Shown here piece by piece: positions 14,824 through 19,202 of a DNA stretch of 64,000 nt. Source of the DNA: Methanosphaera sp. ISO3-F5. GTDB lineage: Archaea > Methanobacteriota > Methanobacteria > Methanobacteriales > Methanobacteriaceae. A model generated the notes under the pieces. That model saw only the letters and a program-made list of their open reading frames with translations. It did no database searches and had not been told where the DNA came from. Positions within the stretch are counted from its first letter, which is position 1. Each line of letters opens with the position of its first letter. Where the stretch lies: contig NZ_CP118753.2 in NCBI RefSeq assembly GCF_034480035.2, positions 248,001 through 312,000 on the forward strand, read 5' to 3'. The translations under genes were made by a program, and so were the position numbers.

Positions 14824-17022
14824 CTATTCATCCTTTAAAATTTCCGGAACATAACCCTTTAAAAGTAAAGATAATGTGATTATAGTCACAGAACTTAAAG
14901 CCATAGCAAAAGCACTGAATTCAGGTCTGAAAAAGATATTAAATGGAATTAAGATTCCTGCAGCAACAGGAATTAATATGATATTATACGCAAATGCCCA
15001 GAATAAATTAAGTTTAACCCTCGACATAGTCTTTCTACTAATTTGAATACTAGCAACAGCATTCAATAAATCTCCATTAATTAAAATCACATCTCCTGAC
15101 TCTATGGCAACATCAGTTCCCGTACCCATAGCAACCCCAACATCTGATTTAGTTAAACTAGGAGCATCATTAATTCCATCACCAATGAAAGAAACTATCT
15201 TATTCTCATTTTGTAATTGTTTAACATAATCTAATTTTCCTTGTGGTAAAACTTCCGAAACAACATTACTGATTCCAACTTTTTCAGCAATTTTCTCACA
15301 AGTATTCCTATTATCACCACTAACCATCGAAGTTTCAATATCCATGGAATGAAGAGTTTCAATAGCATTAATACTATTTTCTTTAATCTTGTCTTCAACA
15401 GATATTATTGCCAAAATATTATTTTCATCAGCTAAAATAACACTAGTTTTCAAATCAAGTTCTTCTTTTTCTAAATCCTCAAGGATACTTCCAGGTAAAT
15501 CAATGTCATATGTATTCATTAACTTTTTATTACCCACATAATATTGAATATCATCTATACTTCCTATAACTCCTTTACCTGTGATATTTTCAAAGTTATC
15601 AACATCATATAATTCATATCCCTGTTTATCTTCATTATTAAATAAAGCACTAGATATTGGATGTTGTGAGAACTGTTCTATTGAACGAACAATACATAAA
15701 ATTTCATCATCACTTTTTTCTGAATAATTAATAATAGTACTAAGAGTAGGTTGACCTACAGTAATTGTACCAGTTTTATCAAGCAACACATGGTTTATTT
15801 TATCTGAAACTTCTAAAGTTTCCCCATCTTTAATAAGAATTCCATACTTAGCTGCTAAACCAACACCTACAGTTAAAGCTGTAGGAATTGCAAGACCTAA
15901 AGCACATGGGCAAGCCACAACAACTACTGAAATAAAAATACTTAAACTGAATAAAAATGCTTGCCTAAAAATCACATACCATACAATAAAGGAAACTAGG
16001 GCAATTAATAAAATTGCAGGAATAAAATATTTAATTATTTTATCAGCTAATTTCTGTATAGGAGGACTTGAATTTTGAGCTTCTTGTACCATTGAAATAA
16101 TCTGTGACAAAACAGTTTTTTCACTAGTATTTGTGACTTTGAATTTAAATGTTCCTTCCTTGTTTATGGAACCACCTATAACATTTGAACCCACTTCTTT
16201 ATGGATTGGTTTTGATTCACCAGTTACTAAAGATTCATCAACATAACTGTTTCCATCTATAATTTTTCCATCAAGAGGTATTTTTTCTCCAGGTTTTACT
16301 ATTATAATATTTCCTTTCAAAACTTCATTGATAGGCATTTTCTCTTGAATTACCTTATTTTCAATATATTTCTCAACAGTAGCCTCTGTTGCTTTAAGTT
16401 GTACTAATTTTTTTATAGAATCTGAAGTTTTTCCTTTAGCTCGGTCTTCTAAATATTTACCTAGCATTAAAAATGATCCTAACATAATACTTGTATCATA
16501 TAACATGAATTCATTAGTTCCTAATAAACCGAATGTACTTATTAAACTAGCTAAAAAAGACACACTTATTCCTAATGAATACATTACATCCATATTTAAA
16601 TTTTTATGTCTTATAGAAGTTAATCCAGATTTTAGGATAGGATATGATACATAAATGAATGGTAAAATTGATATAGCTAACATTATGTATGATGCATTTG
16701 GACCTAAATTAAAGTTTCCAAACATCAATATCATTAATATTGCTGAAAAGAAGAATCCAACAACAATTCGGTATAATTTTCTTTTTTGATTTTCTTCATG
16801 TTTTTTCTCAATTACGTCATTGTTAATGGAGCTATTATCATGAATGCCCATGTATTCGTAACCAATATTGTTAATTCTTTCTCCTACATCTTCAATAGTA
16901 ACTACTTCTGGGTTAAACAGTACATCTGCAGTTTCAGAGACAAGATTAACATGGGTTGAATATACTCCGGGCATTTTTGATACTGCGGAGGTCACGGCTC
17001 TTGAACACATTACACAGGTCAT
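14824..17022 (-). CDS. copA: Copper-translocating P1B-type ATPase
   Basis: The membrane pump exports Cu(I) with ATP. From the ATG at 17022 it has 732 residues and all core motifs: TGES in the actuator, CPC in the ion-path helix (VVVACPCALGLAIP), the phosphorylation site DKTGT, and GDGINDAP. An N-terminal metal-binding domain opens with MTCVMCSRAV, but starting at 17022 removes the first beta strand of that domain. The missing strand is encoded upstream in the same frame (KKTINVAG), with no normal start codon before a TAA at 17047-17049. Read together with the 75-residue ORF just upstream through a -1 shift at the A9 tract, the protein becomes a standard CopA with two metal-binding domains. 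See the finding on 17030-17060. Confidence 0.92.
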   Translation of the reverse strand: MTCVMCSRAVTSAVSKMPGVYSTHVNLVSETADVLFNPEVVTIEDVGERINNIGYEYMGIHDNSSINNDVIEKKHEENQKRKLYRIVVGFFFSAILMILMFGNFNLGPNASYIMLAISILPFIYVSYPILKSGLTSIRHKNLNMDVMYSLGISVSFLASLISTFGLLGTNEFMLYDTSIMLGSFLMLGKYLEDRAKGKTSDSIKKLVQLKATEATVEKYIENKVIQEKMPINEVLKGNIIIVKPGEKIPLDGKIIDGNSYVDESLVTGESKPIHKEVGSNVIGGSINKEGTFKFKVTNTSEKTVLSQIISMVQEAQNSSPPIQKLADKIIKYFIPAILLIALVSFIVWYVIFRQAFLFSLSIFISVVVVACPCALGLAIPTALTVGVGLAAKYGILIKDGETLEVSDKINHVLLDKTGTITVGQPTLSTIINYSEKSDDEILCIVRSIEQFSQHPISSALFNNEDKQGYELYDVDNFENITGKGVIGSIDDIQYYVGNKKLMNTYDIDLPGSILEDLEKEELDLKTSVILADENNILAIISVEDKIKENSINAIETLHSMDIETSMVSGDNRNTCEKIAEKVGISNVVSEVLPQGKLDYVKQLQNENKIVSFIGDGINDAPSLTKSDVGVAMGTGTDVAIESGDVILINGDLLNAVASIQISRKTMSRVKLNLFWAFAYNIILIPVAAGILIPFNIFFRPEFSAFAMALSSVTIITLSLLLKGYVPEILKDE

Positions 17023-17033
17023 TCCTGCTACAT

Positions 17034-17261
17034 TTATTGTTTTTTTTTAATAGTTGCAGGAAAACCTATGGTATCTAAAGAACTTAAAATTTCTTCAACA
17101 TCAAACTTTTCATCATCATATTTAACTTTAACTTCTTTGGTTTCAAGATTTGCATCAACATTTGTTACTGCTTCATTTGAAGTTAATGTTTTAGTAATTG
17201 TATTAACACAAGCATTACAATGCATATCTTCAACTACAAAAGTATCTTCTTTGTCACTCAT
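17034..17261 (-). CDS. CopZ-like heavy-metal-associated domain ORF
   Basis: This 75-residue protein is one complete heavy-metal-associated domain with DMHCNACVNTI as the CxxC metal site (about residues 13-18) and DTIGFPATI at its end. It could act as a free Cu(I) chaperone that hands copper to the ATPase. GGAGG lies 8 nt before the ATG. It ends KKKQ-stop immediately at a run of nine A residues. The copper ATPase frame lies -1 relative to it and overlaps the end. It is either an independent chaperone gene, or the first domain of the ATPase that is joined by slippage, or the product of a frameshift mutation. No copper regulator is visible next to it. Confidence 0.82.
   Translation of the reverse strand: MSDKEDTFVVEDMHCNACVNTITKTLTSNEAVTNVDANLETKEVKVKYDDEKFDVEEILSSLDTIGFPATIKKKQ
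17040..17048 (-). promoter_or_regulatory. A9 slippery tract between metal-binding ORF and copper ATPase
   Basis: Nine A residues on the minus strand, read AAA AAA AAA in the upstream frame, lie two codons before that frame's TAA stop (17034-17036). A -1 shift here continues in the ATPase frame. Runs of this length are known to promote both ribosomal and transcriptional slippage. Confidence 0.5.
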
Positions 17262-17440
17262 TTGTTCTTCCTCCTTTATTTTTTATTGAAAAATTTTTTT
17301 TAGTCTATACTAAATTTATACTAGGAAGTTTTATAAATATTTATCTAAAAATAAAATAATCTTATTTCTTCATCAAAACAATAATAAACATTGAGTTAAC
17401 AGGATAAATTAATAAAATAAAAAAAATATATTAAAAAAAG

Positions 17441-17861: not shown

Positions 17862-19202
17862 TTATAATAAACCTTCTGAACGTATTAAATCCATAAATGT
17901 TTTTACATCATCATTTGTTGTTTCTGTTTGTTCGGTTTTTGTTTCTTTTGGTGTTTGTTTTTGTTCTTGTTTTGGTGTTTCTTGTGGTTGTGTTTCTGTT
18001 TGTATTAGTCCTTGTTCTCTTAGTGTTTGTGTGAATGATTTTCCGTCATTTGTAATTTTTGTTTGTTCGGTTTTTGTTTCTTTTGGTGTTTGTTTTTGTT
18101 CTTGTTTTGGTGTTTCTTGTGGTTGTGTTTCTGTTTGTATTAGTCCTTGTTCTCTTAGTGTTTGTGTGAATGATTTTCCGTCACTTGTTGTTTCTGTTTG
18201 TTCGGTTTTTGTTTCTTTTGGTGTTTGTTTTTGTTCTTGTTTTGGTGTTTCTTGTGGTTGTGTTTCTGTTTGTATTAGTCCTTGTTCTCTTAGTGTTTGT
18301 GTGAATGATTTTCCGTCACTTGTTGTTTCTGTTTGTTCGGTTTTTGTTTCAACTTTTTCTTTTGTTTCTTTTACTGCTTGTTCTACTTTTGGTTTTGTTT
18401 CTTCAATTTTTTCGGATATTTTTTGAGCTTGTATTAGTCCTTGTTCTCTTAGTGTTTGTGTGAATGATTTTCCGTCACTTGTAGTTTTTGTTTCTTCTAT
18501 TTTGGTTCCGATTTTTTCTTTTGTTTCTTTTACTGCTTGTTCTACTTTTGGTTTTGTTTCTTCAATTTTTTCGGATATTTTTTGAGCTTGTATTAGTCCT
18601 TGTTCTCTTAGTGTTTGTGTGAATGACTTTTCATTACTATTTTCTTCTATTTTAGCTTCTACTTTTTCTTTTACCTGAGAAACAACCTCTTTTGCATCTT
18701 CTTTAATTTTTTCAGTAATGTTCACTTTTTCTTCTTCAGGTTCTGGTTTTTCCACGACTTCTTCCACGGTTTTATTATCTTCTTGAGGTGCAGCACGTGT
18801 TTCTATTTTTTGTTCTTGTTTTTCGATTTCTTTTTCAACTTTTTCTTTTAGTTCAGCTTCTTTTTCTGCTTCTTCTTTTGCTTTTGCTTGAGCTGCAGCT
18901 GCTGCTTTTGCTTCCTCTTTTTTTCTTTTTTCTTCATTTTTTCTGATAATAATTTCTGAAATTCCTGGTGCTACACGTCTTTTAAGTTGCATTTTTGCTT
19001 TTTGAACAAGGTATGATGTTTTAGTTTTATATGCATTTTTTTCATTTTCAATAATTTCAATTTTTATCTCTTTATCTTGAGATTTTGGTTTTACCTGTGC
19101 TTTATGTAAGTTTTGCACTGATCTTGGATTTTTTCCAGAAATATTGTGTGGTTTTTGATTTTCTGGGTTTGCATCCCTAAAATTAGCTTTATTTTCACTC
19201 AT
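17862..19202 (-). CDS. Tandem-repeat, Glu/Lys-rich coiled-coil-like protein of unknown function
   Basis: I do not recognise this 446-residue protein. It has no signal peptide and no membrane segment, so it is likely cytoplasmic. Residues about 1-70 are polar. About 70-190 are Ala/Glu/Lys-rich and should form a coiled coil. The rest has five near-identical modules [16 protein letters not shown] separated by two kinds of linker: a charged one ([18 protein letters not shown]) after modules 1-2 and a Gln/Thr/Pro-rich one ([18 protein letters not shown]) after modules 3-5. A sixth, degenerate module ([14 protein letters not shown]) forms the very C-terminus. GGGAT lies before the ATG. The repeats could be multivalent docking helices for one partner; this is inference. 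The aconitase X subunit follows after 16 bp. Confidence 0.82.
17916..18640 (-). repeat. In-frame tandem repeats, 135 bp (3 units) and 159 bp (2 units)
   Basis: The same CTTGTTCTCT string (plus strand) recurs at 18011, 18146, 18281, 18440 and 18599, giving periods of 135, 135, 159 and 159 bp. TTCGG recurs at 17931, 18066, 18201 and 18336, each 135 bp apart. Both periods are multiples of three, so unit gain or loss keeps the frame. The units are almost identical in DNA, suggesting recent or ongoing expansion. Confidence 0.9.

Follow-up and report, generated by a model that had tools for sequence, protein, structure and literature searches.

The window analysed here, a stretch of 64,000 nucleotides from the sheep-rumen methanogen Methanosphaera sp. 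ISO3-F5 (PMC11008217), carries on its minus strand two adjoining frames. The upstream frame, ORF1 (17034..17261), encodes in its unshifted form a 75-aa CopZ-like protein with an HMA domain (PF00403, 58.4 bits, residues 7-67), the motif MHCNAC and matches among CopZ and CopA domain structures, and is preceded by a strong Shine-Dalgarno (SD) sequence, AAAGGAGGAA, at 17268..17277 (anti-SD duplex of -10.0 kcal/mol). Its C-terminus reads ...TIGFPATIKKKQ before the stop, and its 3' end is ATT AAA AAA AAA CAA TAA: a run of nine A (A9; 17040..17048, T9 on the plus strand) that is read as AAA AAA AAA, then a single codon, then the stop TAA (17034..17036). Downstream lies a copper-translocating P1B-type ATPase, CopA (14824..17022), with 732 aa from GMTCVMC and a TIGR01511 score of 582.6 bits against a cut-off of 397. 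The ATPase ORF also matches PF00122, PF00702 and an HMA profile beginning at position 7, and contains the CPC motif of Cu(I)-exporting P1B-1 ATPases (ACPCAL).

The ATPase frame is -1 relative to ORF1 and reads TAA AAA AAA ACA ATA AAT GTA GCA GGA ATG ACC TGT. The 5' end of the tract gives this frame a TAA codon (17047..17049), which blocks in-frame starts farther upstream in ISO3-F5. From there the frame is open, continues as KKTINVAG and reaches its first ATG at 17022, 11 nt from the stop of ORF1; between that TAA and this ATG the window holds no ATG, GTG or TTG. The six codons ACA ATA AAT GTA GCA GGA (TINVAG, 17023..17040) encode the first strand of the second HMA domain (HMA2). Placed in front of the ATPase ORF, they supply profile positions 1-6, complete the domain and raise its score from 43.8 to 58.6 bits. 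A preliminary description of this DNA had placed the end of a 75-residue metal-binding ORF at A9 with the ATPase frame at exactly -1, and had seen in KKTINVAG a missing first HMA strand encoded ahead of MTCVMC without a start codon; the minus-strand sequence and the profile scores agree with it on each of these points.

Averaged over the genus, pairing with the 16S tail is -9.2 kcal/mol at the ORF1 start versus -0.5 kcal/mol at the ATPase ATG, the latter no better than at internal ATG codons (-1.6 +/- 2.3). By sequence, the locus thus has the single-start layout of an E. coli-type copA gene, with one SD-preceded start at ORF1 and none for the ATPase frame. Initiation at the ATPase ATG, whether independent or coupled, appears poorly supported; a start there could nevertheless give some pump, minus one beta strand.

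We read out the junction in 20 Methanosphaera genomes and found exactly A9 with the same frame offset in 18 of them. These 18 all carry KKK before the junction and a stop one codon past the tract, with no A8 or A11 among them, while their ATPases range from 54 to 100% identity to the protein of the window. They include a second, independent genome of ISO3-F5's own species, which agrees with the first, and the most distant and first-branching genome in the tree (G013). The tree requires a minimum of three changes, which fits one gain with two losses but may also reflect two gains with one loss. The preliminary description had looked to relatives for a verdict and held the loss of one A, natural or in sequencing, to be the main alternative; that alternative fails, because the relatives keep both the tract and the offset.

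Across the genomes with A9, the six -1-frame codons that follow the tract have changed 7 times at their first, 2 times at their second and 23 times at their third position (permutation p = 0.006), and the encoded residues stay T-[IL]-N-[VI]-[AG]-G. This pattern makes it most likely that the stretch is translated in the -1 frame, although it has no possible start. An independent start in the ATPase frame was considered and rejected: none of the A9 genomes has an ATG, GTG or TTG upstream of GMTC in this frame, and a lone CTG occurs in G006. One genome (G011) additionally carries a partial tandem copy of the 5' part of copA and its neighbours (L095, G011:C117:7000-12500), with a second A9 junction.

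Runs of this kind are avoided elsewhere in the ISO3-F5 genome. In a sample of 286 ORFs (368 kb of coding sequence), with expectations drawn from within-gene synonymous shuffles, runs of at least nine A were seen 3 times versus 54 +/- 7 expected, and among the other Lys-Lys-Lys triplets of the sample 1 of 39 is written AAA AAA AAA where about 21 would be expected. The ratio of observed to expected falls with run length, from 0.53 for A8 to 0.13 for A9 and 0 for A10 and longer. Every phase shows the avoidance, that of the ribosomal heptamer slightly more so (0.82 for A7, versus 0.95-0.99 in the others), and the likely cause is slippage or indel mutation at the runs. Because A9 is avoided elsewhere, its retention at one place in 18 genomes calls for an explanation. 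In 464 kb (400 kb of genome stretches plus the window) there are 1,429 homopolymers, of which only the copA tract links a short ORF with a frame of over 200 codons downstream of it.

The two remaining Methanosphaera genomes have a continuous frame at this place. In G016 the tract is A10 and the gene forms one frame of 810 codons, without a separate copZ. In G018 the tract is lost, GAA AAA CAA ACA standing in its place within a continuous frame of 816 codons; the first HMA domain has no cysteines (MSDKSS), and a separate HMA protein with CxxC (copZ) is encoded just upstream of the fused gene. In the Methanosphaera genomes other than G018, the only HMA domains are the two encoded here, barring the partial copy in G011. 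The exceptions fit, since the sole species without any tract is also the sole one with a separate chaperone gene. Other genera examined in the family (Methanobacteriaceae) have a fused copA, with a separate copZ beside it in most of those sampled; a separate small HMA protein accompanies it in g6, g9 and g10, and a separate copZ is lacking in g8, g15 and g17, so that a chaperone is no requirement in the family. Ten copA linkers read from other genera contain no A tract; the loci read from g15 and g17 (L051-L053) and the g8 genomes show a two-HMA fused copA with neither copZ nor a linker tract. Among the 80 loci listed in a contig scan, one (L161) has an off-frame HMA domain upstream of copA, and was rejected as a second case: it consists of a normal, free-standing copZ and, after it, a copA that starts at an ATG of its own.

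We consider it very probable that the A9 junction is a programmed recoding site from which one mRNA yields two proteins, a free chaperone and the full CopA. Most messages or ribosomes would pass A9 unslipped, and their product, ending after KKK-X, would be a free copper chaperone of 73-75 aa that would deliver Cu(I) to the pump. A fraction would slip by one, joining KKK to TINVAG and MTCVMC in a copper-export ATPase with two HMA domains, for which the tryptic peptide expected to cover the residues before the ATG is TINVAGMTCVMCSR. The idea of an E. coli-like copA logic with inverted roles, raised in the preliminary description, gains strength because, apart from the species that lost the slip site, the genus has no further copZ-like domain. 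Of the programmed -1 frameshift suggested there, the programmed slip is supported, with A9 conserved; slippage of RNA polymerase is at least as likely as a ribosomal slip.

Two routes can be envisaged. RNA polymerase may lengthen the transcript by one A; alternatively, the ribosome may re-pair at A_AAA_AAA. The tract holds this heptamer in slippery phase, in keeping with the X_XXY_YYZ pattern, and the only tRNA-Lys found is of the UUU type, in two copies (among the tRNA genes located, fewer than the 40 published), which together suit ribosomal slippage. The homopolymer length associated with transcriptional realignment, about nine or more A or T, is present as A9 in 18 genomes and as A10 in one, the A10 species being counted as suiting RNA-polymerase slippage. 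A conserved downstream hairpin was rejected as stimulator: RNAalifold, which is blind to pseudoknots, finds no shared pairs over 16 genomes, and single-genome folds have z-scores mostly near 0, with G002 as the exception (z -2.4). We slightly favour RNA-polymerase over ribosomal slippage, by a narrow margin, because the run length of nine is conserved where the heptamer alone needs seven, because length governs most of the A-run avoidance and phase little of it, and because no conserved stimulatory structure was found. Frameshifting reached 40% in A9 cassettes of a magnesium chelatase gene (PMC3711429), and by this analogy it is plausible that slippage at A9 would supply a large share of full pump.

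Three other readings of the junction were weighed. It is quite improbable that these are two translationally coupled genes, with copZ ending, translation restarting at the ATG of MTCVMC and A9 being incidental. HMA domains are often dispensable for transport. The 11 nt between stop and ATG also fall inside the within-20-nt coupling class of Antonov 2013 (PMC3711429). Yet the ATPase ATG lacks the SD that a restart would call for, HMA2 would miss profile positions 1-6 (43.8 versus 58.6 bits), selection acts on the -1-frame reading of the six codons that precede the ATG, A9 is kept here in spite of its genome-wide avoidance, and the frame is continuous at this point in both exceptional species and in other genera.

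Phase variation at the DNA level, in which the run would gain or lose a base in replication and toggle the full pump between cells, has a similarly slim chance. Homopolymers are classic contingency sites, a G11 tract in another ISO3-F5 gene looks like one, and G016 combines A10 with an in-frame gene; but a switch should give a mixture of lengths, whereas the 18 genomes are uniformly A9 and both genomes of the window's species agree, with lengths read from assemblies and nearly always from one genome per species (A9 in 18 of 20, A10 in one). A housekeeping metal pump would moreover be an unusual target. The G11 tract lies at about base 5593 of L110, inside a long ORF where an alternative frame is also open, which makes the gene a candidate for phase variation. 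In favour of a pseudogene or an error of sequencing is that the ISO3-F5 assembly was built solely from PacBio continuous long reads, which handle homopolymers poorly (PMC11008217). Next to no likelihood is left to this reading, since A9 recurs in an independent conspecific genome and in 16 others, where the frames to either side are open and encode conserved proteins, and independent errors would be needed in 18 assemblies. To judge from the sequences, the A9 junction looks like a built-in switch, not a mistake.

In E. coli copA, the frameshifting signal includes a downstream stimulatory RNA structure, and the zero frame gives the pump while the slip gives the chaperone; the Methanosphaera zero frame, in contrast, stops after KKK-X, the slip site has a different sequence, and no conserved downstream structure appears by RNAalifold, pseudoknots aside. 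Programmed -1 frameshifting of the E. coli gene (Meydan 2017, as summarised in PMC5009743 and PMC9548414) is otherwise reminiscent of what we propose: one copper-ATPase gene giving a free N-terminal HMA chaperone (70 aa in E. coli) and a full pump, in a genome without a separate copZ. The Methanosphaera system differs in being archaeal and, so far, in being limited to a single genus. In Thermus thermophilus dnaX the unslipped frame gives the long product, again the opposite of Methanosphaera copA. That gene also yields two products from a nine-A slip site, at which slippage occurs in transcription (cited in PMC3711429); the genes are unrelated, and RNA slippage is demonstrated for dnaX, whereas for Methanosphaera copA it is proposed. 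Magnesium chelatase, whose -1 frameshifting extends to Methanocaldococcus and Methanococcus (PMC3711429, PMC5009743), has a conserved A_AAA_AAR site in methanogens and slips more in cassettes with longer A runs, but is a different gene with no chaperone/pump split. Saccharolobus solfataricus fucA1, which undergoes -1 frameshifting (PMC8211752), is likewise archaeal and is split at a slip site rich in A; its split occurs in S. solfataricus strains only, in contrast to one spanning nearly the whole genus.

A 2021 review lists a single reported archaeal case of programmed -1 frameshifting (PMC8211752); Methanosphaera copA would be a second archaeal candidate, genus-wide and with a clear function. 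Our literature search found no paper on a frameshift in Methanosphaera copA, and the main text of Antonov 2013 (PMC3711429) does not mention copper. The gene would be a convergent copy of the E. coli solution, with another slip site and the frames reversed, and annotations of Methanosphaera genomes are likely to show it as a pair of genes or as a shortened pump. A fuller scenario, which we rate a little short of an even chance, is that the genus swapped its copper-chaperone gene for an A9 site slipping mainly via RNA polymerase, an independent invention of the one-gene chaperone and pump in which the frames are the reverse of those in E. coli; relatives regaining copZ would drop the site, and the A10 lineage would make both proteins by the opposite slip. 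Natural controls are at hand for a test of archaeal RNA-polymerase and ribosome slippage on A9, in the form of A9, A10 and a lost tract with separate copZ.

Two further features surround the gene. A palindrome-like box at 17299-17314 (minus strand, TTTAGTATAGACTAAA) resembles a DtxR/MntR-type operator; this box upstream of ORF1 recurs in many loci of the genus, with the forms TTTAGGTAAGACTAAA and GTTAGGTTAGACTAAA in relatives. At 17862-19202, a repeat-rich protein of 446 aa adjoins copA, and similar proteins are encoded near copA in G011 and G016.
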